The position numbers and the translations under genes are program-made. Below, piece by piece: positions 740 through 63,750 of a DNA stretch of 64,000 nucleotides. The stretch's first letter is position 1. Each line of letters starts with the position of its first letter. A model generated the notes under the pieces. The model made no database searches and had not been told where the DNA came from. It saw nothing but the letters and a program-made list of their open reading frames with translations. The stretch spans positions 17,083,312 through 17,147,311 of the forward strand of contig OY979719.1 in assembly GCA_963855995.1 (NCBI GenBank), in the 5' to 3' direction. The DNA is from Muricea muricata (lineage: Eukaryota > Cnidaria > Anthozoa > Malacalcyonacea > Plexauridae).

Positions 740-3700
740 CTACGCGAGTGGAAGCGGGATATTCATTTCGTCGCAAACTTCTCTGATACACTTTAACAAA
801 GTTTTCATATCTCCTGGATACAGCTGTCCAATATTTCCTATTCTGAAACAATCAGCCTTGCTAACTTTTCCCGGATAAATAACTTGACCTTTTTCGCTCA
901 GATTCGTGTAGAACGCTTCGAAGTCAAAATTTGGATGGTCAGGATAGTAATACGAGGTAATGATGTAGCCTTGGTCGGCATCTTTGAGCAGTTCTTTGAA
1001 ACCCATCTCTTTCATTCCATCCTTCAAAACTTTTCTGTTTTCTTGGTACCTGAAAAGTATTTAAAAACAAACATTGTAAAATATGAAATGGTGTGCAAGA
1101 CTCGAACTGTGACAAACACAATGTGGAACACATAAGATTTATCATTGATCAACATTAGATTATCTTCCCATTCTATCGTTTCATGACGCTGTGCTTTCTA
1201 CTAATTACAAAGAAATACCATGACGTTTTAAAATCACGTGTGATCACATGTGAAGTTCATGTTATCCCATGTGAAATTTATGTAAAGTTCATGTGATTAT
1301 ATGTGAACTTCATGTGATCACATCTGAGGTTCATGTGAAATTCATGTGATCATATGTAAAGTTCACATGTGAAATTTACGTAGTCACATGCGATTTGTGT
1401 AATTTTATGAATAAGATTTTTTTGCTTTACGGAAACTCTAAAGACTGTTTTCCAATTACACGTTTTTCCCACGTACGTACACGGGTAAAAGTCTAAATCA
1501 TGTTCAATATTACACATGAAATAAACAAATGTTTCGATGAAGAGAGTTCAGCATTCGCTACGAGTTAGCATACTTTAGTGATTTTATTTGTTAAATACAA
1601 ACTACATAGTAGAGTTTAAACTTTTACGTGCGTGTACGTGCGAGTGAAAACGGATAACTGGAAAGCAGCCTTTAAGGATCAATCTAGTACCTGCGAGATC
1701 TTGCATCGACACCCCCTTCCTCTTTCTGGATCTCGATTGCTCTTTTGAAAGCCATCAAAACATGTGTGGGTGGGGTAAATCTGAACTGACCATTTAGTTC
1801 AAGTGCTTTGTATTGCTGCAGGGCATCTAAACTAAGACTGCGTGCATAGCCTTCGCACTTCAACAACTTCTCGATATTTGCCAAAATGAACGAGAAGCCA
1901 GGAACACCTTCGGTGCACTTGTTGGCTGAACTCACGAGAAAATCAATACCGCATTTTTCGAAGTCGACTGGAACGGCAGCAAAACTGCTCATGGCATCCA
2001 CGAAGAATGCTGCATTCGGTGCGTGTTGACGAACCAGTTGACCGACCTCTTGTATCGGGTTGAAAATTCCTGTTGTGGTTTCACAATGCACCATTGCGAC
2101 ATTTGTGATCGACTTGTCGTTGATCAAAATCTCTTCAACTTTTTTCACATTTGTACATTCGATCTCAATATCTTTGTGGAGGACCTGGAAAGATTTTATA
2201 AATCCCAAATTTGTAATGGATTGTTCCAACGAGGAAATTTTCAACACACCGGGACATTCTGGACATTTTATACATATTAAGACATTCTTTGGACCCCCGT
2301 CTCTGGACAGCGGATATTTCCTCTGTTTATGGGTTATTGATCTTTGTTTGGAACGAGTTATTATGTTAACTTATACGCAATATTTTTTTGTCACCACCGG
2401 TTACCGTAGCCGATAAATACGTTTAAATAATTGGTCATGCTGCACGAGACCGGCATAAAGGAAAGTTATGAAGTGTTATCTAGAAGAGTTATAATTTCGG
2501 AGAGTTATTACAAAAGCAATTTTGCAAATGACTGCACCTAATCGCTTAGCTCTCCCGACGTTTCAGTGACCTAACATGGGAGAGTTACATTTATGAAGAT
2601 CTTGGAGAGTTATCGTTCTTTTATAACTCTGAGCCGCGTTCACTATTCTGGCGATGAAGAGAGTTATGTAAACGAAAGCCTTTGAGAAAAGTTTCTTCGC
2701 AAACTGCCGACAGAACTCTCTCCATCGCCATTCTCCTCTCTCGTTCATAAACGGGGCTCAGAATCATAATAGAACGGTAACTCTCCAACGTCTTCATTAA
2801 TATTGGCACGAAAAAGTTACATTAAATGTAACTCTCTAATGCTAGTTAAAGGAAAAGTCGGAAGAGTTTAGAAATGACGTGTGGTCACAGGGATTGTGGG
2901 CGTGGTTAACTCTACGAAATTATAACTCCACTTCACTGAAATTGATCAAAATGGTAAAATTACCAGGTACAACCACAAATGAAATTTTGACAAATTCTAA
3001 AAATGTATTTTGTGTGGCCATTTATTATGATTGTTCCAGAAAGGGCCCATTTCATGATTTATGCAAGGTTTCAAGCAACTTCAAGGCATTGTCAGTGATA
3101 ACTATTTGATCAACATTGACCCAGCAAATACACTCCAAATTCCATGTGCACAAGTACCTATGTTACTCTCAGGAGTCAAAACATAAACAGGCAAAAAGCC
3201 AAAACAATGCATCAGATATTTGCTTTAATCTGACTCTTGAAATTGTTCAATAGTTTTGTTCACTGGGGACCGATCATTATTTCTAACTGGATGTGGCAAA
3301 AAAATTACATTTTCACACCTCAACTTCTTTTCAACTCAACCATGGTAGAGCAAACATTTTATGTTACCAAACCATTTAGACACAAAGAGTTTTTCACCCT
3401 AGCTGAAAATTCTCTCCTGCCTTTCATAAAGGGAAGTGATGTTGTACTAATGGTAATTGCATTCAAAGCTAGATGAGAAAGAATTAATGGTGAAATTCAC
3501 TAACAACATAAATCACATACCGCATTAATGCCCAATGCCTTTGCAATATTACCAATTCTATCACCATATGCACCATTTGTGCAGACCAATAATTTACCAT
3601 CTCGTGGCACTGTGGTACCAATGACAGACTCCACGCCCATGGTACCTGCACCTTGCATTGGTATGCAGGTAAACTTATCTTCTGATAGACCTGCAAACGA

Positions 3701-24085: not shown

Positions 24086-27000
24086 ATGCTGAATTCTATC
24101 AAGAATTTACACACAGAAAGCTTGATTTACAAAGGATATCAATCCTCCTTGAGTCCCATTAGGAATTTCAAGGCAGCGTTGTGAGTATTTATAATGATAA
24201 TCAAGCACTTAACTTGCACCTGTCAATGTTAGTCATGAGGGGGTCAGGGGAAAGCGGGCAATGATAGCGAATTAGAATTCGAAGTAAAACGTATTGAAAG
24301 TTCTCTTCAAATTACATCTTACTTTTTAATTGCACTCAATCATATGTCCGACCTTTGCCCACCCACGTCCCACAACATTCAAATGACCATGCTCCCAGGC
24401 TTTCTAATTCGAACAACAACATCTGCGACCAAGCCCCCTATTATAGCCCTCCACCCCCTTGTGCCTAACATTAATAGGTGCATTAGAGATGTTCAGATCT
24501 CACTCCCAATACCTCTACTGCTACCTAAATCTATCTTTCAGCTAATCAAATGTGTTGTACCAACCCGATTACCCAATCAAATTGTTTAAAAATCGGGAAA
24601 AGGTAGCGCTAGTGGTAGAGGAAGTCAAATCTGAACCTCACTATTATATTGCAAAGCGTACAATGTATTATTAAGATTTTTTAACAACACTTTGGCTAAT
24701 TGCACCCAGCTACTGCAGTGAACCCTTTACTCCCCCGTTTTATGATTTGTTCAAGACTGCAAATTATGGCTGTTTTCGACGAGATCTTGAGTGTGCATGT
24801 TAGATAAGCAACACTGATCATATTGAACACTCTGCGATTCTACATGTAAATGAACAAATGCTAGAAATGGAATAATGACATGCATTTATGTATCATCTAG
24901 AAAAATAATTAACACCATTTATTTTACCATTGCTCACTTAAATAATTCTATTAAATAATTCATATTTTTGTTGTAAACTCCTTATCGATCAGCTAAGAAA
25001 ATTTTTTTTTGCCATTTTGCATCAGCCCCTAGTCTCTCCTAATTCCTATGCATGCTCATAGGTATGGGGCTAAGCTGCAAAGGGGAGATGCATAAAAGTT
25101 CTGTCTGAAATTTTTTATGTTATAAAGTCTGAGGCTTCTAAATATCATTTGGTTGAATGTCGCAGAAAACATGGATATGTTCAGGGCCTGTGACTGGGCC
25201 GTGTGCTGGCAATTATAAAAAAAAACAAGGACTTGTGGGACCCAAATTTTTGGTTGCACAATGCTAACTTTCCATTTTGGGTGTTCATTAATCTTTTTTT
25301 TTCGTGATGCAGATCCACAACAGTGCTGTCAAAAGATGAAAGATTCTATGATTTGGCTATCGTGGGAGGTGGTATTGTTGGACTTGCCACAGCTCGTGAA
25401 CTTGCTTTACGTTATCCAGGAATGAAACTTGTGCTGCTAGAAAAAGAGCGTTCTTTAGGTAAGATTTCTTTATATATATAACATTTATATCTTTTATGAT
25501 ACACAACTAAAAATTATGCATTTATATTTTTCCCCAAAATATTTCACCCAAGCAGGAATATTTCCAAGCATTTTTGTTGTATGCCATTTTTGAGTTTTGA
25601 AGGAAAGGAATGTATTTTTAGTTTGCGTTTTGGCTGGCGTATAAAAAAGTAAAAATGAATTAATACCCAAAATGAGTACTAGTAGAGTCAATATTTTAGC
25701 TAGGATTCGGAAAACATTGTCTCAAATAATTTTGTCTTTGTCCACTCAAGCAATTGTTACTGTAATGTATTAATATTAATAATATTAAATAAATTAATAC
25801 ATTATGATATATGATATATAATTTATACATCATGATGTAGTAAGTAATAATATTAATAAATTAGTACATAAATTAAATTAGCAAGGATATTATGACCATA
25901 ATTCCAAAATATAATTAAAATATTACACATAAATTGGCAGTCCTATGTTATAATCATACCACGTACCACGTACATCATATAAACACTCATCACACAGTTT
26001 GAACTCAGTGATGTGTTACTTGCAGATCAAGTGAAGTTGAATGAGTTTTAAATAGTCATACTGTCATACTAATTAACAATTCTAATTGTTTTAGTAGAAT
26101 TAATCTGAGTTAAATAATTGATTCATAAGCCATTTTGTTAAAAATGATACTATGCATTGTCTTAATGAATTGAAAAAAATATGCCAGGAAAATTATTGGT
26201 TTGCTACTCGATATTTATCGAGGAATAGATACCGTGTAGAGTAGCCAATCAAATTACAGCATTGGCATTAGTATGCTAGTATTATTCTAGTAATAGTCAA
26301 TAGGCTACTGTAATTGTCATAGACCTATACACAGCTTGTACTCAGCCTTTACACAGCATGATTCCGTATCTAAACCTCGCTTTCACCAATAGCGGTGGAC
26401 TATATGCGAGTGTTTTCTCAGTGGCCCGCTTAATTATAGTAGACACACTGTAAAACAGTAAATATTTCTGGAGAATGGAACAAGTTTTTTCTTGAAATAA
26501 TAATATATGCAATGATTGTTTGCTGGGATGCGCTGTGATGAGACAAGACTGGACTCACGATCAGGGCCGTCGCTAGAGCGTTAATTGGGGGGTTGAATAT
26601 TCATATTTTTGTGTTATGCCCGACTAATTTCTTTTGAAACCAACTTGATTTGAAACGAAATCAATCGGGCATAACATGAAAATATGAATATTCAACCCCC
26701 CAATTAACGCTCTAGGGACGGCCCTGCTCACGATTTTCTCATGAAACTGCCCATGCATTGGCAAAAGAATTTCCGTTTTCAATACCTTTTTTTTTCAAAA
26801 TGCCTCTTTTGTCTTTTAACTATGTTTAATGCCTCAGTCATTTGTAACCACGGCCCCCCCACCCCCGGGATATAGCGGGGATGTTCAAAAATATAACGGG
26901 GATTTAACGCCATTTAACAGCGCAATATGCCCCGTAGTGCCGTGGAATTAACTACGAATTTTAACACCGGGGAATCAAACCGGGATTTAACAGCCGGTCT

Positions 27001-30000
27001 TAAAATGGCGTCCCACAAAACAACTTGTAGAAAGTATGATTTTTAATATGTTTATGTATCCTTAGCAATTCAGAAACTTACAGTATAGGTATACATTAAA
27101 TCAGGGTTTACCTTATCTACGCAATTTATAAACACGAGCTTTATGTATTTGTTATATTAACTGTTACTATTTTCTTGTTATATTGGCGTAATATTTTTAA
27201 CACTTCATAAGGTTTTAAATTAATGTGTGATCTGGTTGATTTGGATGTTTTGAGGCACTGCCATACTGGGGGTTTAACAACTAACTTTGCACTAGGGGTG
27301 GGGAAATTAACAGTTTTTAACACTTGGTTAGTGTTAAGTTCCCCGCTATGTCCCGGGGGGGGGGCGTGGTTACAAATGACTGAGGCATAAGGCGAAACGA
27401 GGATTATTCATATTAAGTTGTAGACGTTCATTTATTTATTACGAGCTTTCGACTGCCAGTCTGCAGGTTTACAATTACATGTAGGAACAAAGTGACAAGA
27501 TGATAGTTCCCCCTGTATACAATATCGATATCTTAGATTGCATGTACGGAAAACAGTCAAATTTTGCACAGTAAACAACGGTATTGTACTGGTAAATGCT
27601 TTGATATGTTATCTGAGTCTTTTGTGCATGCTGTGTGCTATGATTCAATTGTCCTACTGTGCTGATAGTTTTCTCTGTCCTTTCTCAATGATTTCTCCGT
27701 TATTAAAATCTATTTGATGGTTATTCGTCTATGCGTGATTGGCAATATTTGAACTAACTTTGCAGTTCTCTACGTTTGTCTTGTGTTCCTTCAGCCGAGT
27801 GTTCTCCCAGTTCTTCTTCCAGTTTCGGCAGTATAGCTCCATGAGCAACCTGCACATTTAATTTGTAGACAACTTTAGCCTGATTTTCTGTCTAGCCTGT
27901 CTTTAGTTGAAGAAAATGACTGTCCTACAGGGTTTAGAGGTGTTACTCGGATATCATGAGATTTTCAGTAGTCTTTTCAGTGGTTCTGACCTTTGATGTA
28001 CGGAAGGTCATCGTAGCTGTAGCGGGATTGTGGTTCTACGAGATCGAAAAACAAGTTTACTAATTCTTCAGGTGACAAAGCTTTTGTCTATGCCATTGCT
28101 TGTTTCTTAGTTTCAACTTCTTATAAACATTTCCGAGGGCAACCGTTTGAGATTAAGGTGTTATGTGCTCCCGTTCCTGTTGTTTTCCTTCGATTGTATT
28201 GGGTAATATTGTTGCCATGCATGTGTAGGAGAGTTTGTGCAGTGCTGACGTTGGTCCGTTTTTGTTATGGGATGAATCTAGTATCTGTCCGTATGTGTGG
28301 CGGGTTTCCTGTGGAAAAAACCCCGCTATATAGATACACGTGCTTGGATATTGTGTCCTGTTTACAAAATCAATTAAATCATATCTATAACAGGAGGCGG
28401 GACTTGAAAAACAATCCCAAACACACACTCACGTTTACGGAAACTAACTCTTTTCATAAGGGCGGAAACACACACGGCCACCTAAATAAAAGTCGAAGTT
28501 TTAGAACTTTTAGACATAAACTACCAGAGGTGATGATGGCAAGAAACTAGAGTATGCATCGATGGTAAAAGATCAAAGATCTTGGATGGTTGTTATGACT
28601 GATGCACGTTCATCTTATTTTATGCATTCCGTTGCTTGTGTTCTTTTATATTGTCTTCTTGTACAAGTCAGTGGGGAAGTTAGTAAAAAACTTCCCGAAT
28701 CTTCTCTTGACACGAAAGGTGCGCAAAGATTTGCATCAAAATATCACGAAGAAGCGAGTACTGGCAAACATTTGGAGAAACGGGACGTCTCTAACCCAAC
28801 TCACAAATCAATAGTACACTCAACGACCTCAGCACACTCAACGACCTCAGCACACTCAACGACCTCAGCACACTCAACGACTTCAGCAACTTCGTCGTCA
28901 ACTAACTACGGATTATGGATTTTAACATTGAGCAGTTTAAGCGTCTCGACAACCTGTCATTCATTAGTTCTGATCACGTACGGATTATTTCGACAATTAA
29001 GAAACCTCCCCGGATTGAATGTGATGAACTTGTGTCTTTCCTTGGCGCTGTCGCAACTCACACACCTCATCGCAATCTCTCATTTTAACGGGACAATAGT
29101 TTGCGACGTTTTGGCAATTTTCATACACTATTTACGCCTATCATCATTTCTTTCTGTATCCATCATTTCTTATCATACTTGGTATATTTTCTCACGACCT
29201 TTTGCCGGACGAATATCCAACAGATCGCGGTCTAAGTTTGTCAAGTATTCTATCGTCGTATGGCTAACTCCAGCCGTATTTGTTATAATTTGTTTCACCT
29301 TGGACAAAACTCAAGTCTTTTCTCTCGATTATGGAACGAATTGCTGGATTGGAAGCAGAAATGGGCGATTGTTCTTGTATATAATACCGTCCTCAGTTCT
29401 AATACTTTACAATTTTTACAAATTCATCCAAACAGCTCTCAGTTTATCCCGTCATTACAAGCAGACACACGAGACCATAAAACGCAAAAAAGGAAAACAA
29501 AATCTTCTGGTCTGTGTAAAACTTGCCGCTCTCGTAACCTGCCCATGTTTCGTGTCGTTTTTTGCCATGTTGTTTCCCGATGTGGAAGCATTAAATTATT
29601 TGTACGCTGTTTCTGTATGTCTACAAGGAGTGTACATTGCCCAAATGTTTCTGCTGAACAAGAGGACAATAAAACTTTATAAGAATTGGTGGAGAAAGCG
29701 GAGAAACGTTGGAGCAGATCGATTACAAAACGTGGCGAGACCAAGAAGAAATGACGTGCCATCAGCAAACACAGCATTTCGACTGTCTTAGGAATAAATA
29801 TGAATAAAAACAGCAATGTCTTTGCTATATGAATATACTGAACATAAAATAGCCACATTGCAATGAAAACGTCTATGTATAAGACGATATTTCCTAACCG
29901 ATAACGCAATACGTAAATTAAAATTTTAAGTTCCGTTTAGGTTTGTTCATAAATAGAATAAAATTTCGATATATCGTGTCATTTTGAGGCATTGTGCATG

Positions 30001-33000
30001 CTGTTTCTTTGGCTAACTGTTATCGGGTATTTCCGCTACTTATCCTCTATTTAAACATGTAAATATTTTTGTCGATAATTAATGGACTAATTGTTAATTA
30101 TTATATAACCTTAAGAACTCTCATTTTGTCTTTGTTCGATATAATTGTGACGATAGGATCTGTCTGTATGTGCATGTAGGTTTCCTGTAAACGTTAATAT
30201 GTAGGGAGTAGGGACCCATTATTACGTGTAACTGTGAAACTTTCTCGCCTTGTTGCTGTTCTATAGTGAACTTAATATACTGGTCGATAGAATTAGGTAA
30301 ATTATAGAAATTGGTTAACATTATGTCTTTTGATGATGACAAAAATATCATCGACAAAACGAAACCATTTCTATAGGTGGTGATGTAGAATGGTTAAGCA
30401 TGTGGTAGTTCCTCAATTGTCTCCATGCAGAGGTTAGCTGCAATATGACTCACTGGACTACCCAAAGCACATCTTTAAATTTGTTTGTACGTCTGACTAT
30501 TGTAGTTAAAGAAGCTGTTGGAAAGCCTAAAGGCTTAGTGATATCACCTGTAGATAGTTTTGTTATGTTTTGTAATGCTGTGTCTTTTTTTGAGCTTGTT
30601 GCGAATATGTTCGCATACTCTGTCAACAGGAATTGCTGTATTCATATTAATCTGGCACTGCAAAGAGCAAAGAAAAATTCGTTGTCTCGAGCGGGATTTG
30701 AACTCACATCTTCGGCTTTCTAGACCGCCGCTCAAATCGCGACAATGAATTTTTCGTTGTTCTCTGTAGTGTCAGATTAATATTAATCTAGTTTTTCATA
30801 TCTCTGAGAATGGTTCTGATATACAAAAAAAGGAATTGCTGTGAATAGTGTTATTACGTCAGATGAGACCATGATTTCATCTTCCTGCTAGCTTCTCTGT
30901 AAACTCGGTAGAGTTGTTAACAGAGAAGTAGTGATGAAAGTGTGTCTGAAAGCAGCTTGAAGTGTTGTAAAGTGCTGTGTCTCTACAAGTGATGACAGGT
31001 CGAAGTGGGTTGTTAGGTTTGTGATCTTTGGTGGAACCTCGAGTGGTCGGTGATAATTATGCCAATGGTCGGTTTGTACGTATGTTTGTCGGGCTCCTGT
31101 TCACGTTTTAGTTTTTAATTCGCGTTCGATTCTTTTGAAAGAGGATTTAGAGACTTTCTTTCAGGTGTTTTATGGTTCAGTGAGTCTTGCATTTTTTCAC
31201 CGACCACCTGATAAATGCTTTCGTTTTTGTCGATGATATTTCTGCCATCATCAAAAGACCTACTGTATATATGCTAACCAATTTCTATAATGGATTTAAT
31301 TCTATCGACCCACATATTACATTCACTATGGAACAGGAAAAAGAGGGCAAACTTTCATTCGTAGACACATGACTCACCTTAGTTGCACGTATAGTAATAA
31401 TGAGTCCCTGCCTATTATCGTTTACAGGAAGCCTACACGTACGGAGAGATACTTAGACTTTAACTCACACCCTAACAAATAACTCTCCTACACAGAGCAA
31501 CAACATTGCCAAATACAATTGAAGGGAAACAACAGTTTGAACGTATAAACACATATAACTAACACTTTAATCTCAAACGGTTACCTTTGGAAATTCTTAC
31601 TAGAAGTTGAAAAGAAACGAGCAATGAGGAAGATAGAAGCTTTGCCACCTGAAGAATTAGTTAAATTGTTTTTCGATCTCGTAGAACCGCAATCCCACTA
31701 CAGCTACGCTGTCCTTCCGTACATCAAAGGCCTGACAGCACCACTAAAAAGACTACCAAAACTTCTACACATTGTAGAACAGTCGCTCAACTAAAGCAGA
31801 CCATCACCGAAAAATCAGGCTAACATTGACTACAAATTAATTGCGCAGATTGCTTATGGAGCTATATTGCCGAAAATGGGAAAGGAAAAACACTCAAATG
31901 AATCGCACTTGAAGTCTGCATTATAATTCTAGGCCCTTGAAAACTGGTATAAAGATTCTTTAAGTTTATTCTTTTAATCGTAATTCAATCACGTTTATAC
32001 AGCTATTATAAGGTTTTCTTTCCAAGCGTAAACTGTCAGCTATATGCGCTCAAGGGATAGTCGATTATATAAATCACATTTATACAGCTATTAAGGTTTT
32101 CTTTTTAAAAGCGTAAACTGTGATTTAGCTATATGCGCTCAAGGGATGGTCGATTATATAAATCACGTTTATACAGCTATTAAGGTTTTCTTTCCAAAAG
32201 CGTAAACTGTGAACTGAGTTCGCTCATGAGATGATCGATTATAGATTATTTACGGTCTGATACGCAGGAAAATAGGTTTGTAGCGAGTAAATTTGCCGTC
32301 ATATGTCCCCTATGTTGTTTCAAAGAAATAATTCGGCGTTTAGAGGAGAAAATAAGCAGTGACACGCTGTTATCCCGTGAACGCTCATAGTTACGGTTTT
32401 GGAAGGGTAACCTTTATTGAATTATCTGTGTATTAAATCCTGATAGAAATTAAGTAAATGTATAGTTTGTGTTGGTGATAAAGAACTCTCATCGTTAGCC
32501 CACAATCTTTGTATTGGTAGATGTAAAGTGATGCATACGTATAAAAAGCGAAAGTCGTACAATTTTAACAAAGATTGATGACAATTAAAACGCTCTTGAA
32601 ACCCATAAAAATTTTCAGGTGCATGGTAGCCATGCAGTTGTCGTCATATATCGTACAAAGACAGAGTTGTTGAGACAGGATGTTTGTATGGGGTTACGTA
32701 ATAGTTCATTCTAGAGACGGTTCTCTTTGATGTATCGCGGTCACTATAACCACGATAGTGACTTTGAGTGCAATATCAATTGGATGAAACTTGTGAAGAC
32801 ATCTCGTAAAATCTTGCAGTAGAGTTTTCAAGTCGATAGACTCGTTGAAACATCTCCTCGAAAGGTCAGATGACCAATTGATACCTACGAAATCAGGATT
32901 TATTTGATATAAAGTTTTATTTCACTGAGTCGTTTACAAGAAATATATACATGTTCAAATTAAAAGAAAATAAGTATACCGCGAATATCCAATAACAGTT

Positions 33001-36000
33001 GGTCACTCAGTCATGCCTCAAATGCCTACATTGTGTTACGATTTATACTTATAAATTTCGTCTCTAAATAGATGTGTTTATTCCAATGTGTCTATTTTAT
33101 GTACAGTATATTAATATAGCATTTAGGACATTGTGTTATTTATTCATATTTATTCTAAGACAATCTAAATCCTCTATTTGCCAATGACGCCAGTACATTT
33201 TTTGTTGGTCTCGTTACGTTTTTTAATCGATCTGCTCCAACGTTTGTCCTTTTTCTCCACCAATTCTTATAAAGTTTTATTGTCCTCTTGTTCAGCAGAA
33301 ACATTTGGGCAATGTACACTCCTTGTAGACATACAAAAACAACGTACAAATAATTTAATGCTTCCACATCGGGAAACAACATGGCAAAAAACGACAGGAA
33401 ACATGGGCAGGTTACGAGAGCGGCAAGTTTTACACAGACCAGAAGATTTTGTTTTCCCTTTTTGCGTTTTATGGTCTCGTGTGTCTGCTTGTAATGACGG
33501 GATAAACTGAGAGCTGTTTGGATAAACTTGTAGATATTGTAAAACATTAGAGTTGTGGACGGTATTATATACAAGAACAATCGCCCATTTGTGCTTCCAA
33601 TCCAGCAATTCATTCCATAATCCAGAGGAAAGACTTGAGTTTTGTCCAAGGTGACACAAATGGCAACAAATCCGGCTGGAGTTAGCCATACGAGGATAGA
33701 GTACTTGATAAATTCAGACCGTAGACTGTTAGTTATTCTTCCGACGAAAGGTCGTGAGAGAATATACCAAGTATGATAAGAAATGATGGATAGAGCGAGA
33801 AATGAGGATTCGCGTAAATAGTGTATGAAAATTGCCAAAACGTCGCAAACTATTGTCCCGTTAAAATGAGAGATTCCGACGAGGTACATTAATTCCGACA
33901 GCGCCATGGAAAGACATAAGTTCATGAAATTCAATCCGGGGACGTTTCTTAATTGTCGAAATAATCCGTACGTGATTAGAACTAATGAATGACAGGTTGT
34001 CGAGACGCTGAAACTGCTCAATGTTAAAATCCATAATCCGTAGTTAGTTGACGACAAAGTTGCAGAGGTCGTTGAGTGTTCTACTGGTTTGTGACTTGCG
34101 TTAGAGACGTCCCGTTTGTCCAAATGTTTGCCAGTACTCGCTTCTTCCTGATGTGCTGATGCAAATCTTTGCGCATCTTTCGTGTCAAGAGAAGATTTGG
34201 GAAGTCTTTTACTAACTTCCCCATTGACTTGTGCCAGAAGACAACATAAAATAATACAAGCAAAGCAATGTATAAAACTAGATAAACGTGCACTAATCAT
34301 GACTACCACCGAAGTTTTGATCTTTTACCATCTATGCATGCTCTATCTTTTTGTCCTGGTGATTTATGCCAAAAGAATACTAAGTACTTGACTTTTATTT
34401 GGTCGAGCGTGAAAAGGATTTCCGTAAACTCGAGCGTTGTGTTTGGGATTGTCTTTTTTTCCCACCATCTGTAGATATGATTTTGTAAATAATGCAAGGT
34501 ATCCACGCACGTGTATCCATATAGGGGTTTTTTAGTGTAGATTGTTCGAAAGAAAATTGTGTGGGTTTACAGGTTTAGCGTACGATTTAAACACTGAGCT
34601 TCATACTACATCCTATAAACTGAAACCACGACAGGCAGACAACTTAAGGAAGCACAAAATAAAACAAATTCCGAAAATAGGCATCTTGTATTCCTGATAT
34701 TCAAGAAAAGAAAAATACGAAAACGACGGAGTCGCTGATATTTCGTTCTTATTCCAAAGACATTGTCAAATGGTTTGACAATGTCTTTGGAGTAAAGACG
34801 AAATATCAGCGACTCCGTCGTTTTCTTGTTGTTTTTTCTTCTTGAATATCAGGAATACAACAAGATGTCCATTTTCGGAATTTGTTTTATTTTGTACTAT
34901 AAACTGACATGTACTATTTCTACGGGTAAACGTGTCTTCCATTAAATAGTTTTAGTTTGAGGTTTAGGCTAAGCCGCAAACACTTCTTTTGTGACATAAT
35001 AGAGATCATCAACCTTTAAATTTTTGAAACATACGATTTACGAACGATCTTTCAAATTGCTGTCCTAAGACACTGTATGATCCCAGAATCTTTAACATAG
35101 CTGAATATCTCAATCGTCCGACGTTCGAGATGACTGCGTTGTGTCGTTGGACGTTTGTGTAGAACGGCTGTCAGCAACTCAGCATGTCTAGCCATAGCAC
35201 TTAAACACTTTGTAAGTCTGCAGAAACCTCATGTTTTCGATGTTCAATAATTTGTCTACTTGCATGGCTTCAACTTTTGACTAAAGGCGTTTGACGTTTG
35301 CGGTTTGCAATTAATTTTAGGCCTCTAGACATGCTGACAGCGGCTCACTTCAAACGACACGAGTCGGTAAACTCGAACGTCAAGCGATTGTGGCGTTGAG
35401 ATATTTGCAGCCACAGACAAAGTGCCTTAGACTTAGTGCAACATCTTAAACTCATTTAAAGAACTTAAAGGAGGAGACATGGCTCTCTAACCATTAACTA
35501 CTAATCGTATTTAAGATACCGCTTGCACTAAAATTGCTCTACGATGTCGCAACTCTGCGCTTTCGAGAACGCATTGGCGTAGGCAGGCCGACGCCAATTA
35601 GTGGCGGGTTTGCCATTAAAAAACAGCATTGAATACATGTACTTGACATTATATAACAAGTTTTCCTCTAATTCGCTTACTTGAAGGAGTTTATTATGGT
35701 GGATGTTATCGCGTTGCTGTCTTGCATGCTGAGGGTCCGTAGAACCTCTAGTACTATTTTCCGTACTGAACACCCTCATCCATTTCTTGAGACAAAAATC
35801 ATCATTTAAGGTTCAAAAACGAACAAAGGTTCTTACAAGACAAGTTTTAGGAATTTGCCTTATGATAAGATGAGGCCATAAGTTTGGGCCATATCAGAGT
35901 AGAGCAGATTTTTTCAATGAAATCAAGTCAATAAGAACACATAAGAACACACCAATCAATTGAATAAGAATACATTTCTCATATATGACTATATGGGGCA

Positions 36001-53409: not shown

Positions 53410-54839
53410 TATAATATAAGAACGTTATTGCACAGCATACAATATTTTTAAACAGATTGATAATAAAATTCTCCTTACATGTTAGGATTGACGTTACGCA
53501 ACTGCTTTTGCTCATTGCTTAGCAACAACCTTACATTTTTAAGCGGCCGGCGAAAGAAGTGAACTTTTTAAGCAAAAACAAACAGACTTTCGATATTTAT
53601 AATTTTAAAATAGCTTTAAAAAGTGTGAGACTGATAGGAAAAGTAATTTCCAGCTGTTTGCTGCATATGGCATAATATATTTGGCAAGAAAGTCGAACAA
53701 TCTGATCTTTTCGTCGAGCTGTTATGTTTCTGTTTGCTGAAAGTATGGAATATATTTTTTTGTGTTTCGTCGATGATGTGTCAACGAGTTTCTGTTCCGA
53801 TGACAATTAAGGTACTTTCGTGATAAAATTAGTTTAGTTTTTGTAGTTTTCTTGCAATTTTTCTCGATTTTTTGTGTTTTCTTGCTGCCTTTTCTAAGTT
53901 TTGTCAAATTGTTCAATCAAATTCCTACTCAGCGAAAACAGCTACGAATGTTGTTTTTGAATTTTATCGTTTTGCTTTGCCCGTTTTTCTTTTGTTTTCA
54001 ATCTGTTTTTCTCCTTAACTTTCACGCTGTTTTTTCCTGCATTATATAATAATTTGTGTACAAAAACTACGCTAAATGTGGTCACATTGGTGCCCTACTC
54101 CCAGGAAACAGGAGGCAAAAAAAGCGTGCATTGTTGTGTTATTATGCACGCTCAGTAACCAATCATATTGCAGAATTTTTACTTCTTATGTTATAATGAG
54201 CAATGATGCTCAACATAGGCCATAAAATGACAACCGATAAACAGAACTTTCCCGAGGAGAATTTCTTATAGGTTCGCAACTTTGTTTGTACAATATATTA
54301 GAGCCTATCAGCCTAGAGGCTAGATCGTGTGACAAAACTAAATCGGCTATTTACACATACACTACAACGTGTTTAATTTTAAAATCTTACCTTGATACCG
54401 ACGAAGATATTCCCCCAAAAGCGAGAACTATATCATTTAATAAGTAAATAGCGTTAAAGCGTTTAAACAGCTAGCTATAGAAGAACAAACGAATGGAAGA
54501 TGTGAAATTAGAGCATGCTTGCTTGGATGGTGATTCCATATTTGGGCATTTTCGTGCGAACGGCGAATTCGGAAATATCCGGTGCGCTCCTGAGTTTGAT
54601 GTTGAAGCCATTTATGGGCACATGCGTAAATATGCGGAATACGGAAAATTCCGAAATTAGAATGCACACAACCCCCAAATTGTACTCACACGATGACATA
54701 TGTGATGAAACAAGACTGGACTCACGATTTTCTCATGAAACTGCCCATGCATTGGCAAAAGAGTTTTCGTTTTCAATACTTTTTTTTGAAAATGCCTCTT
54801 TTGTCTTTTAAATATGTTTAAGGCGAAACGAGGATTATT

Positions 54840-55745
54840 CATATTAAGTTTGTAGACGTTCATTTATTGATTACGAGCTTTCGACTGTCAGTCTGCAGGT
54901 TTACAATTACATGTAGGAACAAAGTGACGCGATGATAGTTCCCCCTGTATACAATATCGATATCTTTAATTGCATGTACGGAAAACAATCAAATTTTGCA
55001 CAGTAAACAGCGGTATTGTACCGGTAAATGTTCTGATATGTTATCTGAGTGTTTTGTGCATGCTGTATGCTATGATTCAATTGTCCTCCTGTGCCGATAG
55101 TTTTGTTTGTCCTTTCTCAATGACTTCTCCGTTATTAAAATCTATTTGATGGTTATTTGTCCATGCGTGATTGGCAGTATTTAAACTAACTTTGCAGTTC
55201 TCTACGTTTGTCTTGTGTTTCTTCGGCCGAGTGTTCTCCCAGTTCTTCTCCCAGTTTCGGCAGTATAGCTCCATGAGCAACCTGCACATTTAATCTTGTA
55301 GACAACGTTAGCCTGATTTAAAAAGTTACTAATAAAGATTTAACAAAATGTTCAATAGAATAATGCTCAATAGAGTAAATGACTATTCTACAGGGTCCAG
55401 AGGTGTTACCCGGATATCATGAGGTTTTTAGTAGTCTTTTCAGTGGTTCTGTCAGTCCTTTGATGTACGGAAGAACAGCGTAACCGTAACTGTAGCGGGA
55501 TTAGGGTTCTACGAGATCGAAAAATAAGTTTACTAATTCTTCAGGTGACAAAGCTTTTGTCTGTGCCATTGCTTGTTTCTTAGTTTCAACTTCTTGGAAA
55601 CTTATGTCCTTGCGTCCCTGTTGTTTTCCTTCGATTGTATTGGGTAATATTGTTGCCATGCATGTGTAGGTGAGTTTGTGCAGTGCTGACGTTGATCCGT
55701 TTTTGTTATGGGATGAGTCTAGTAATTGTCCGTATGTGTGACGGG
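54840..55745 (-). pseudogene. Penelope-like element remnant, 3' half, block B
   Basis: On the minus strand, [20 protein letters not shown] and [17 protein letters not shown] of the GIY-YIG endonuclease are at about 55245-55120, preceded by degenerate [12 protein letters not shown]-type sequence near 55560-55510 and NTIEGKQQ near 55640. Matches 27410-28312 in block A, and ends where receptor 4 begins. Confidence 0.75.
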
Positions 55746-55959
55746 TTTCCTGTGAAAAAAACCCCTGCTATATCGGTACACGTGCTTGGATATTGTGTCC
55801 TGTTTACAAAATCATATCTATAACATGAGGCGGGACGGAAACTAACTCTTTTCATAAGGGCGGAAACACGCACGGCCACCTAAATAAAAGTCGAAGTTTT
55901 AGAACTTTTAGACATAAACCACCAGAGGTGATGATGGCAAGAAACTAGAGTAGGCATCG

Positions 55960-57156
55960 ATGGTAAAAGATCAAAGATCTTGGATGGTTGTTATGATTGA
56001 TGCACGTTCATCTTATTTTATGCATTCCTTTGCTTGTATTCTTTTACATTGTCTTCTTGTACAAGTCAGTGGGGAAGTTAGTAAAAAACTTCCCGAATCT
56101 TCTCTTGACACGAAAGGTGCGCAAAGATTTGCATCAAAATATCACGAAGAAGCGAGTACTGGCAAACATTTGGAGAAACGGGACGTCTCTAACCCAACTC
56201 ACAAATCAGTATAAGTACACTCAACGACCTCAGCACACTCAACGACTTCAGCAACTTCGTCGTCAACTAACTACGGATTATGGATTTTAACATTGAGCAG
56301 TTTAAGCGTCTCGACAACCTGTCATTCATTAGTTCTGATCACGTACGGATTATTTCGACAATTAAGAAACCTCCCCGGATTGAATGTGATGAACTTGTGT
56401 CTTTCCTTGGCGCTGTCGCAACTCGCATCCCTCGTCGCAATGTCTTATTTTAACGGGACAATAGTTTGCGACGTTTTGGCAATTTTCATACACTATTTAC
56501 GCGAATCATCATTTTTCGCTGTATCCATCATTTCGTATCATACTTTGTTTATTTTCTCACGACCTTTCGTTGGACGAATATCCAACAGATCGCGGTCTAA
56601 GTTTATCAAGTATTCTATCGTCGTATGGCTAACTCCAGCCGTATTTGTTATAATTTGTTTCACCTTGGACAAAACTCAAGTCTTTTCTCTGGATTATGGA
56701 ATGAATTGCTGGATTGGAAGCAGAAATGGGCGATTGTTCTTGTATATAATACCGTCCTCAGTTCTAATACTTCACAATATTTACAAATTTATCCAAACAG
56801 CTGTCAGTTTATCCCGTCATTACAAGCAGACACACGAGACCATAAAACGCAAAAAAGGAAAACAAAATCTTCTGGTCTGTGTAAAACTTGCCGCTCTCGT
56901 AACCTGCCCATGTTTCGTGTCGTTTTTTGCCATGTTGTTTCGCGATGTGGAAGCATTAAATTATTTGTACGCTGTTTTTGTATGTCTACAAGGAGTGTAC
57001 ATTGGCCAAATGTTTCTGCTGAACAAGAGGACAATAAAACTTTATAAGAATTGGTGGAGACAGCAGAGAAACGTTGGGGCAGATCGATTACAAAACGTGG
57101 CGAGACCAAGAAGAAATGTCGTGCCATTAGCAAACACAGCATTTCGACTGTCTTAG
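55960..57156 (+). pseudogene. Receptor 4: 7TM GPCR copy with in-frame stop
   Basis: Block B counterpart of receptor 1 and nearly identical to it. The frame is 1197 nt from the first ATG to the terminal stop, but a 3-nt insertion relative to receptor 1 creates TAA at 56212-56214, right after THKSV in the spacer. Reading continues in the same frame through HSTTSA (fewer repeats than receptor 1) and all seven membrane segments to NTAFRLS. The leader plus the Lys-Arg spacer (84 residues) could still be made as a short secreted peptide; the 7TM part has no good upstream ATG. Most simply a recent pseudogene or null allele. Confidence 0.82.
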
Positions 57157-57479
57157 GAATAATTATACTTAAAAGTGTAATGTCTATATTGCTGTATGAA
57201 TATACTGAACATACAATAGCCACATCCCAATGAAAACATCTATGTATAAGACGATGTTTCCAAACCAATAACACAATACGTAAATTAAAATTTTACATTC
57301 CGTTTAGGTTTGTTCATAAATAGAATAAAATTTCGATATATCGAGTCATTTTGAGGTATTGTACATGCAGTTTCTTTGGCAAACTGTAATCGGGTATTTG
57401 CGCTACTTATCCTCTATTTGAACATGTAAATATTTTTGTTAATAATTAATGGACTAATTCTTTTTATTAAATAACGTCA

Positions 57480-58565
57480 AAATTTCTCATTCTGTCTTTG
57501 TTCGATATAATTGTGACGATAGTATCCGTCCGTATGTGCATGTAGGTTTCCTGTAAACGTTAATATGTAGGGAGTAGGGACCCATTATTACGTGTAACTG
57601 TGAAACTTTCTCGTCTTGTTGCTGTTCCATAGTGAACTTAATATATTAGTCGATAGAATTAGGTAAATTATAGAAATTGGTTAACATTATGTCTTTTGAT
57701 GATGACAAAAATATCATCAACAAAACGAAACCATTTCTATAGGTGGTGATGTAGAATGGTTAAGCATGTGGTAGTTCCTCAATTTTCTCCATGCAGAGGT
57801 TAGCTGCAATAGGACTCACTGGACTACCCATAGCACCGGTTTTAAATTGGTGTGTACGTCTGACTATTGTAGTTAAAGAAGCTGTTGGAAACCCTAAAGG
57901 TTTAGTGATATCACCTGCAGATAGTTTTTTTGTTCTGTTTCGTAAAGCTGTGTCTTTTTTTGAGCTGGATGCGAATATGTTCGCATACTCTGTCAACAGG
58001 AATTGCTGTATTCATATTAATCTGACACTGCAGAGAGCAAAGAAAAATTCGTTATCTCGGGCGGGATTTGAACTCGCATCTTCGGCTTTCTAGACCGCCG
58101 CTCAAATCGCGAGTTCAAATCCTGCTCGAGACAACGAATTTTTCCTTGTTCTCTGCAGTGTCAGATTAATATTAATCTAGTTTTTCATATCTCTGAGGGT
58201 GGTTCTGATATACAAAAAAAGGAATTGCTGTGAATAGTGTTATTACGTCAGATGAGACCATGATTTCATCTTCCTGCTAGTTTCTCTGTAAACTCGGTAG
58301 AGTTGTTAACAGAGAAGTAGTGATGAAAGTATGTCTGAAAGCAGCTTGAAGTGTTGTAAAGTGCTGTTTGTCTACAAGTGATGACAGGTCGAAGTGGGTT
58401 GTTAGGTTTGTGATCTTTGGTGGAACCTTGAGTGGTCGGTGATATACCAATGATCAGTTTGTACGTGTGTTTGTCGGGTTTCTGTTCACGTTTTAGTTTT
58501 TGTACTTGTTGATTTAATTCGCGTTCGATTCTTTTGAAAGGGGATTTAGAGACTTTCTTATAGGT
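57480..58565 (-). pseudogene. Penelope-like element remnant, reverse-transcriptase side, block B
   Basis: The minus strand gives [20 protein letters not shown] (RT motif) at about 57835-57770, preceded by [26 protein letters not shown]-type sequence lies near 57555. It is the RT half of the PLE split by receptor 4. A SINE palindrome is inserted at 58010-58178. Confidence 0.75.
58010..58178. repeat. Palindromic tRNA-SINE in block B
   Basis: TTAATCTGACACTGCAGAGA leads into the B-box complement GGGATTTGAACTCGC. The right arm reads GCGAGTTCAAATCCTGCTC, then AACGAATTTTTCCTTG and CTCTGCAGTGTCAGATTAAT. Two SINE tails meet head to head. Confidence 0.7.
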
Positions 58566-58570
58566 GTTTT

Positions 58571-59482
58571 TATAGCTGTATAAACGTGACTGAATAACGA
58601 TTAAAAAAATAGACTTAAAGAATTAACCTTTGTACTAGTTTTCAAGGGCCTAGAATTATAGTGCAGACTTCAAGTGCGATTCATTTAAGTGTCTTTTGTT
58701 TTCCAGTTTCGGCAATATAGCATAGCTCCATGAGCAATCTGCGTAATTAATCTTATAGACAATATTAGGCTGATTTTCCGGAGAAGGTCTGTCTTTTGTT
58801 GAGGGAAATTGCTGTTATACTGTTAGTCAGTTGTTACTCGGTAGTCTTTTTAGTGGTGCTGTCAGGCCTTTGATGCACGGAAGAACAGCGTAACTGTAGT
58901 GGGATTGCGGTTCTATACGGGGTCGAAAAACAACTTTCCTAATTCTTCAGGTAGCAAAGCTTCTACATCTGTCTCATTGCTCGTTTCTTTTCAACTTCTA
59001 GAAAGAATTTTCGAGGGCAACTGTTTGAGATTGAAGTGTTAGTTATATGTGCTTATATGCGCTCCTGTTGTTTCCTTCAATTGTATTTGGCAATGTTGTT
59101 GCCCTGTGTAGGAGAGTTTGTGCAGTGCTGACTCTGCGTGAGTTTAAGTCTAAGTATCTGTCCGTATAGGCGTAGGTTTCCTGCAAACGATAATAAGTAG
59201 GGACTCATTATTACTACACTAATGTGAGTAATGTGTCTACAAGGGAAAGTTTGTCGTCTTATTCCGGTTCCATATTGAACGTAATATATGGGTTGATAGA
59301 ATTAAGTCAATTATATAGAAAATCGTTAGCATATATACAGTATGTCTTTTGATCATGATGGCAAAAATATCATCGAAAAAACGAAACCATTTCTCAGGTG
59401 GTGAATGAAAAAAGGCAAGAATTACTGAACGATTAAGGTTTTCTTCCCAAAAGCGTAAACTGTGAACTATGTGTGCGTTCAT
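58571..59482 (-). pseudogene. Penelope-like element remnant, inverted relative to block A
   Basis: The reverse complement of this segment matches 31172-32006. The minus strand reads FFDDIFAIMIKRHTVYML (RT region) at about 59390-59330 and LPEELGKLFF-type linker sequence near 58965-58930. Its flanks on both sides are collinear with block A; only the inside is turned around. Confidence 0.8.
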
Positions 59483-62120: not shown

Positions 62121-62200
62121 CTAAACACTTTGTAAGTCTGCAGAAACCTCATGTTTTCGATGTTCAATAATTTTTCTACTTGCATGGCTTGACTTTTGAC

Positions 62201-63750
62201 CAAAGTTGGATAACTATAGACCGATTTCAATCCTTCCTGTAGTAAGTAAACTTATAGAACGAATTTTATACGACCAAATTTATGAATATTTCAATCAGGA
62301 GAAACTTTTTTCAAAACAACAATTTGGATTTAGGCCCTGTCATTCTACTACTACTACATTGTTGGATTGTACGAACGAATGGTATGCCAACATGGACCGT
62401 GGGCTTTATAGCTTAGTTGTTTTTCTCGACCTGAAAAAAGCATTTGATACTGTTAATCATGAAATTATGTTAAGCAAGTTTCAAATGTATGGCTTCAAAG
62501 AGAAAGCGATAAATCTTTCGCGTTGTTATTTGACGCATCGAACACTAAGATGTCAATTGAATGATAAGCTCTCGGGGGAGAAAGAAGTCATTTGTGGCAT
62601 TCCTCAGGGGAGCATTCTAGGCCCTCTTCTATTCCTCATCTATATTAACGATTTGCCAAACTGTCTTAATGGCACAACTTCTAGGTTATTTGTTGACGAT
62701 ACCAACTTAACGGCAGTTGGTGAAACAGTGGATGAGGTGGAAGGGAGGGCGGATATTGATGTGGGGAATGTCCGGGAATGGCTGTGTGCAAATAAGCTTA
62801 GTTTAAATATTGGGAAAACCGAGTATATTTTAATTGGATCAAGGCATAAAACAAATAGTATAGATACCGAACGAGGGATTAAAGTAGAAAACCAAGTGAT
62901 TAAGAAAGTGAGAAACACCGAAGTACTTGGAGTTAAACTAGATGAAAATTTGAGTTGGGAAAAGCATATTGACCATATCAGCAGTAAAATAACATCAGGT
63001 ATAGGAGCAATTATGAGGATAAACGATTATGTTGAGCAAAGCACTCTGGTAACAGTTTATAATGCCTTAATTCAACCTTATTTCGATTATTGCTGCGAAA
63101 TATGGGATACATGTAATAAAGGACTAAGTGAACGTCTACAAAAACTCCAAAATAGAGCGGCTAGAGTGATCATGAACCTGAATAATGAGCATGGTCAGTC
63201 TATCTTGGCTCGAAAATCCTTAGGTTGGGTAACTCTTGAAGAGCGCAGAGCTCAACTAAAAGCAAGGTTAATGTACAAAATAGTAAATGGTTTAGCCCCA
63301 CAACGACTATGTGAGGCTTTTCGTAAAGTAAATGAAATTCATGAATATGAATTAAGAGGCTCATCGACAAAGCTTCATATTCCAAGACCGAAAACAGAGT
63401 TTTTAAAAAACAGTTTTCAATATAGTGGGGCTAAGCTTTGGAATAAAATACCTGAAGAGATACGAAATTCGACATCCTATAACATCTTTATTAACAAACT
63501 TTCCTCCTCGACCTCAACCATAATTTAATTGTTTCCTAAGTTGTAATAATAACTTAGTTATGTAGAGATATGTCTACACGTACGTACAACAGAGTAATTT
63601 TAGTAGTTAATACATCTAAAAATTTGTTATTATTATTTCCATTATTTATAAAATGTAATAATTTTTATATGCACATCCCTTCTGGAAATCAGCTAATGTT
63701 GAGAAGATTAATGTGTTTAAATAAAGGTTTATCTATCTATCTATCTATCT
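62201..63750 (+). mobile_element. 5'-truncated CR1/L2-like LINE
   Basis: Non-LTR retrotransposon fragment inserted in block B between sequences that are contiguous in block A (around 35280). It holds the C-terminal part of ORF2 and a 3' end of ATAAAGGTTT followed by about five ATCT units, the microsatellite tail typical of CR1/L2-type elements. It lacks the 5' part with the endonuclease. Confidence 0.85.
62203..63528 (+). CDS. LINE ORF2 fragment: reverse transcriptase
   Basis: Open frame of about 441 codons with no start codon of its own, because the element is truncated. RT motifs in order: LDNYRPISILPVVSKLIERI, QQFGFRPCHSTTTTLLD, FLDLKKAFDTVNHEIML, GIPQGSILGPLLFLIYINDL, catalytic LFVDDTNL, and LSLNIGKTEYILIG; the NTEVLGVKLDENLSWEKHI segment follows. 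These motifs place it in the Jockey/CR1/L2 assemblage. The intact frame suggests recent insertion, in line with absence from block A. Confidence 0.88.
   Translation, partial: KLDNYRPISILPVVSKLIERILYDQIYEYFNQEKLFSKQQFGFRPCHSTTTTLLDCTNEWYANMDRGLYSLVVFLDLKKAFDTVNHEIMLSKFQMYGFKEKAINLSRCYLTHRTLRCQLNDKLSGEKEVICGIPQGSILGPLLFLIYINDLPNCLNGTTSRLFVDDTNLTAVGETVDEVEGRADIDVGNVREWLCANKLSLNIGKTEYILIGSRHKTNSIDTERGIKVENQVIKKVRNTEVLGVKLDENLSWEKHIDHISSKITSGIGAIMRINDYVEQSTLVTVYNALIQPYFDYCCEIWDTCNKGLSERLQKLQNRAARVIMNLNNEHGQSILARKSLGWVTLEERRAQLKARLMYKIVNGLAPQRLCEAFRKVNEIHEYELRGSSTKLHIPRPKTEFLKNSFQYSGAKLWNKIPEEIRNSTSYNIFINKLSSSTSTII

Follow-up and report, generated by a model that had tools for sequence, protein, structure and literature searches.

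A receptor gene within a Penelope-like element relic, best read as a large repair-mediated proximal duplication

Template switching of the FoSTeS/MMBIR type gives rise to inverted dispersed duplications. Repair-mediated duplications, in which nearby chromosomal DNA is captured in an interrupted element, have been described by Pace et al. (2009; PMC2671141). In the part of that study on which we draw, 824 of 1,136 human duplications have a donor within 5 kb, and the longest of this proximal class measures 619 bp; target duplications in the proximal cases, where there are any, span 4–21 nt, and a poly(A)/(T) tract is absent from all 39 proximal cases inspected (PMC2671141). The same part defines such cases by collinear pieces of one element whose consensus positions lie within ±30 bp, a donor within 5 kb, an insert found at one other place only, no added poly(A)/poly(T) of at least 5 bp, and microhomology or filler at the junctions. 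A different relation between a host gene and a Penelope-like element (PLE) has been described in Adineta vaga, where, according to the portion of the report used here, terminal repeats stand on both sides of a PLE-mobilised NRPS gene and are themselves bordered by an 8-bp duplication (PMC3846280, Arkhipova et al. 2013).

Here, we describe a receptor gene, receptor 1, that lies inside a PLE relic in a 64,000-nucleotide stretch of Muricea muricata DNA, the whole of which we call the window. We consider it likely that receptor 1 arose by a single repair- or replication-mediated proximal duplication of the neighbouring receptor 2 gene into the relic, and that the block containing both was duplicated afterwards. 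A nearby inverted copy together with a short flanking duplication is what FoSTeS/MMBIR would also leave behind. With the cases of Pace et al., as far as the part drawn on here describes them, the locus shares a single collinear interrupted element, a donor from the same chromosome less than 5 kb away, the probable absence of an added poly(A) tail and a short target duplication, which is possible in theirs. It differs in the size of the insert, which at ~1.84 kb holds a whole gene and is about three times as long as the longest human proximal repair duplication (619 bp; PMC2671141), in the ~29-nt rather than 4–21-nt duplication, and in the inverted orientation of the copy; the excess in insert and duplication length counts against repair. 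The best reading is a known process, repair- or replication-mediated duplication, in an unusually large instance carrying a whole gene. The A. vaga locus, within the portion of the report considered, is similar in having a host gene of a multigene family beside a PLE, a target duplication, and inverted terminal segments on PLE copies; however, the gene there is placed between terminal repeats, whereas receptor 1 is found unframed within the PLE body.

Receptor 1 belongs to a small cluster. Five 7TM open frames are located inside the window, all of which match Pfam 7tm_2, and a sixth follows directly past the window end; the plus strand carries receptors 1 and 4, the minus strand all other receptors of the cluster. 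A PDB search with receptor 1 only returned adhesion GPCRs as the nearest solved structures (ADGRE5, E 1.2e-13). Searching the 453-Mb genome with receptor 1 gave ten matches, six in the cluster and four to distant paralogs (65–69%). The receptor 1 frame and the two pieces of the interrupted element, which on the minus strand runs from 31171 to 30156 and resumes from 28313 to 27388, are as follows.

28520..29791, plus strand: uninterrupted stop-to-stop frame of receptor 1; Pfam 7tm_2, E 1.1e-20
30156..31171, minus strand: 5' (reverse transcriptase) side of the PLE relic, with a palindromic repeat inside at ~30640–30826
27388..28313, minus strand: 3' (endonuclease) side of the PLE relic, including a terminal segment at ~27376–27640
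31203..31887, plus strand: second PLE fragment, uninterrupted at the site; its block B copy (within 58572–59436) is oppositely oriented

The element is assigned to the PLEs on the basis of related copies and of motifs read by eye. RVT_1 was matched in the related copies L047 and L077 (E 5.7e-7 and 5e-8, Pfam), and the GIY-YIG profile reached E 0.037 in L047, under the cut-off, with no match in L077; the four PLE pieces of the window gave no Pfam match. In a genome scan for GIY-YIG, the analysed loci were absent among the 150 scored matches of 782 candidates, and a PDB search with a PLE protein produced a single, uninformative match (E 0.92). An Rfam scan of the window for ribozymes and other RNAs yielded nothing at the gathering threshold; five sub-threshold matches were located on two palindromic stretches. 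A bacterial-type promoter scan returned zero hits, which is uninformative for such a genome.

A preliminary description of this DNA had placed receptor 1 inside a minus-strand PLE, and the placement holds: both pieces are on the same strand, in the same orientation, and collinear with PLE copies elsewhere in the genome. Its left junction, 28313, coincides with the limit of PLE homology, but its right junction, 30120, does not, as the homology ends near 30155. The break, which it had assigned to the YRKPT region, is located in the VYRKPT... stretch. Receptor 1 occupies the interior of the PLE, and the right piece is without a 3' end of its own, the left piece providing that end. When the insert and one copy of the duplication were removed from the flanks, 12 alignments spanned the join, in 10 of 17 PLE subjects picked from the fetched loci; zero spanning alignments were obtained for the remaining seven, which are 5'-truncated or rearranged copies. 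The refuting condition set earlier, flanks that come from different or non-collinear elements, was thus not borne out. PLE copies on C6, on C3 (two arms) and at C1:39.49 Mb are continuous across the site, as is a related PLE subfamily on C1 and C2. The same is true of both second fragments of the cluster, including the copy at 31.2–31.9 kb, which runs through the site in alignments and had rightly been described as uninterrupted.

These data also bear on whether two independent truncated PLE fragments flank the receptor by chance. The genome is rich in PLE fragments, often truncated ones, several of which lie within the cluster; for chance to suffice, however, a 3'-truncated and a 5'-truncated end would have to coincide within ~30 nt in one orientation, and the edge of the homology between receptors 1 and 2 sits at the very same nucleotide, making this explanation very unlikely.

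A similar arrangement surrounds receptor 4. Direct alignment of 27388–31171 (in block A) with 54819–58570 (in block B) gave 3867 columns at 89.8% identity, and further matches, roughly collinear and offset by 26–30 kb, extend on to 44.5 kb. Block A positions 32377–33095, which take in the receptor 2 repeat described below, have no counterpart in the receptor 5 flank of block B. The features of block B that correspond to the interrupted element are listed below.

55756..57520, plus strand: receptor 4 unit, derived from the receptor 1 unit by segmental duplication, with an in-frame stop at 56212–56214 upstream of the 7TM part
54819..55754, minus strand: 3' side of the PLE, block B copy
57522..58570, minus strand: 5' side of the PLE, block B copy

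Because the blocks are one duplicated stretch, what is seen at receptor 4 is the receptor 1 event once more. The recurrence noted in the preliminary description is therefore real but lends no independent support, and a second, independent insertion at receptor 4 is rejected in favour of tandem segmental duplication.

At the junctions, ~29 bp of PLE sequence is present on both sides of the insert, reading ACAGGAAACC...GATAC in the PLE sense.

28283..28313, minus strand: target duplication of ~29 bp, left copy (edges ±3 bp)
30156..30187, minus strand: target duplication of ~29 bp, right copy (edges ±3 bp)

By eye, the two copies differ at roughly 4–5 bases and by small indels, in agreement with the diverged PLE copy previously reported on either side. 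Shifting the join and scoring it against six targets placed the optimum at 18–35 bp removed for all six in block A, and at 22–35 bp removed for five of six in block B, where C6 preferred zero trimming; the PLE pieces accordingly overlap by ~29 bp as judged by eye, and by 18–35 bp (block A) or 0–35 bp (block B) as judged by scoring. The untrimmed block B join, best with one of six targets, is a point against repair. At the left edge a TAAA-like overlap is possible, and microhomology at the junctions is short, ambiguous and strongly diverged, which is a further point against repair; it is likewise too short and aged for assignment to FoSTeS/MMBIR.

The sequence between the duplication copies is homologous, practically over its whole length, to receptor 2 and its flanks.

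28315..30154, plus strand: receptor 1 unit, read as an insert copied from the receptor 2 gene and its flanks; homologous to 34533–~32641 (minus strand)
32641..34533, minus strand: putative donor, the receptor 2 gene with its 5' and 3' flanks
32694..32914, minus strand: interspersed repeat on the 3' side of receptor 2, without counterpart in receptor 1; 40 other genomic matches

Homology begins at 28315, corresponding to 34533 in receptor 2 and adjoining the left PLE junction, and covers ~200–250 bp upstream and ~360 bp downstream of the receptor. The 5' flank, searched on its own against the genome, matched receptors 4, 2 and 5, each starting at query base 2, and each flank searched alone gave four matches, the query included, all within the cluster. 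The coding part additionally matches receptors 3 and 6 and the four distant paralogs, while the flanks match only receptors 2, 4 and 5. We infer that receptor 2 was the donor, since it is receptor 1 that has the duplication on both its sides within the PLE. Receptors 1 and 2 are separated by ~2.5 kb (30154 to ~32641), and the copy is inverted relative to receptor 2. Together with the collinear element and the ~29-bp duplication, the nearly junction-to-junction homology supports the earlier suggestion that the receptor had come in as one unit and had duplicated a few tens of bases of its target.

On the 3' side, homology to receptor 2 is clear up to ~29892 and continues more weakly to ~30108 (68–73%, ~107 columns), and the last ~44 bases (30110–30153) align with receptor 2 positions 32674–32641. 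The tail score against receptor 2 was reached by 0–2 of 2000 shuffles for receptor 1 and by 0 of 2000 for receptor 4. Between these homologous portions receptor 2 has ~220 bases more (32914–32694); as 40 other genomic matches, 68–82% identical, fall inside it, we regard the stretch as an interspersed repeat, which most simply would have inserted into the receptor 2 flank later. When the whole 3' flank was searched against the genome, the match to receptor 2 covered the first 101 of 363 bases only, the remainder coming from targeted alignments, and the shortness of this match is a further point against repair.

The tail of receptor 1 also resembles the PLE terminal segment, at 0 of 2000 shuffles for the block A copy and 2 or 55 of 2000 for the block B copy, and in a scan of 212 tiles the terminal segment scored 15.0 against 14.5 for receptor 2. 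The receptor 4 tail matches that segment weakly (28 or 213 of 2000 shuffles, depending on scoring). We rejected the terminal segment as the origin of the receptor 1 tail and prefer receptor 2, because receptor 2 fits the tails of both receptors 1 and 4 and the repeat accounts for the gap; the likeness to the terminal segment remains a doubt, and it too is a point against repair.

The edges of the insert are informative about whether receptor 1 could be a processed mRNA retrocopy made by a LINE or a PLE. Its uninterrupted open frame and the target sequence duplicated at its flanks would suit such an origin, but receptor 2 is likewise a single open frame and lies merely ~2.5 kb off. No poly(A) is found at the 3' edge of the insert, and the homology passes the stop codon by ~360 bp, running beyond the AATAAA signals close behind it and ending almost at the right junction. 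At its 5' edge, receptor 1 contains a TATA-like CTATATAGA, the corresponding site being different in receptors 4 and 2. The same edge bears GAAAAAACCCC, and as receptor 2 has a similar A-run at that place, the run was probably copied rather than added. Judged from these sequence features, the insert is best read as a genomic copy that includes the nearest AATAAA signals, the DNA past them and the putative TATA-like 5' site, and we consider a retrocopy extremely unlikely.

A further explanation, also raised in the preliminary description, is that PLE activity carried the receptor. In this case, the reverse transcriptase would have jumped to a receptor template, or the machinery would have mobilised the gene in trans, resulting in a PLE body head-to-head with the receptor. 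The PLE-framed NRPS gene and host DNA capture in A. vaga offer a precedent, within the portion of the report consulted here (PMC3846280). In addition, the PLE body of another copy, L021, begins at the same nucleotide as the left junction, where it adjoins an inverted terminal segment, and a PLE copy on C14 has a deletion joint at that site, both breaks lying no more than 2 nt from the left junction; a rough P for the shared break position is about 0.001, an approximate value based on 18 hand-counted breakpoints and a test chosen post hoc. The second PLE fragment lies 3' of receptors 2 and 5. In block A it ends ~0.6 kb away from the donor segment, and in block B its distance to the receptor 5 homology is ~0.2 kb, so that PLE sequence is near the donor too, on one side only. 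Since the block B fragment follows receptor 5 on the same strand, a joint transcript is conceivable. The shared break position and the PLE sequence beside receptors 2 and 5 are further points against repair.

Nevertheless, the terminal segment (27376–27640) occurs only once per block in 74 kb, all other matches being at most 29 bp, and no copy of it is found on the other side of the receptor. The gene is consequently not framed, which leaves no outer boundary for an 8–10 bp target duplication, and the marks of the A. vaga case are lacking. The right piece lacking its own 3' end and the location of the gene in the PLE interior argue in the same direction. Moreover, no PLE was detected within the ~1.5 kb flanks of receptors 3 and 6 and the four distant paralogs (L013–L018), and the 10 kb past the window held only a palindromic repeat that is also found in the PLE piece. 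Movement of the receptor by PLE machinery is thus unlikely. It is somewhat more doubtful still that the PLE reverse transcriptase, halted at a favoured stop site close to the breaks of L021 and the C14 copy, switched to a receptor template without terminal repeats; if true, template jumping from within a PLE body would be a route of gene-family growth.

On the best reading of the locus, as a repair-mediated duplication, the PLE served as landing place rather than as vehicle. A staggered break or a stalled fork would have arisen within the PLE relic, and the gap would have been patched from the nearby receptor 2 locus, with synthesis-dependent strand annealing or template switching as candidate pathways, the rejoining duplicating ~29 bp of PLE sequence. 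Later, tandem duplication of the block comprising receptor 1, the PLE, receptor 2 and receptor 3 would have produced receptors 4, 5 and 6. The locus thus offers a readable case in which a whole receptor gene, with its promoter region and 3' flank, was copied into a dead element, seemingly by other means than retrotransposition. It shows a route by which a small receptor cluster can grow, through copying followed by multiplication with the block, and that a gene found inside a retroelement has not necessarily been moved by it.

Sequence divergence is consistent with this order. Between receptors 1 and 2, K2P amounts to 0.325 in the 5' flank and 0.169 in the 3' flank, exceeding the 0.04–0.11 measured for noncoding sequence between the blocks; by this measure, the receptor copying is older than the block duplication. 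Coding dS between receptors 1 and 2 is 0.115, a low value that constraint may explain, or else gene conversion acting between the two inverted copies. The dN/dS ratio is 0.82 for receptors 1 and 2, 1.15 for receptors 1 and 4, and 0.27 for receptors 1 and 3.

Receptor 1 (R1, 28583-29788), which splits the minus-strand Penelope-like element (PLE) relic, and its inverted neighbour, receptor 2, are separated by a dS of 0.115 in their coding regions and by a K2P distance of 0.325 in their 5' flanks. Because the coding regions are thus closer than the 5' flanks, gene conversion between them is possible. Receptor 4, the counterpart of R1 in the second copy (block B) of the tandem segmental duplication, has an in-frame stop separating its N-terminal part from its 7TM part at 56100-56230, a region in which an HSTTSA-type repeat varies among the receptor copies.

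Around the relic, a second PLE fragment lies at 31169-32006 in block A and at 58572-59436 in block B in opposed orientations, which is a local inversion of ~0.85 kb. Adjoining the PLE 3' end, a stretch of ~556 bp with inverted ends of ~53 bp (26829-27388) is present only in block A; the matching place in block B resembles an unoccupied insertion site for it. Within the relic, a palindromic repeat (30640-30826) with numerous genomic copies gave tRNA-like and miRNA-like Rfam matches, all weak and below threshold.

Elsewhere in the genome, several PLE copies are arranged head-to-head (L021, L024/L025 and L022/L052); L021 is a 5'-truncated PLE body to which an inverted terminal segment of ~300 bp is joined. 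Two copies, L021 (C1:102990726) and one at C14:861550, break at most 2 nt from the position of the left PLE/receptor junction, where PLE homology ends at 28313.

Other coding features of the window include:
1687-2370, minus strand, an exon of a class-V aminotransferase, matching Pfam Aminotran_5 at E 8.9e-16
62200-63525, plus strand, a long frame for the reverse transcriptase of a different retroelement, matching RVT_1 at E 2e-32
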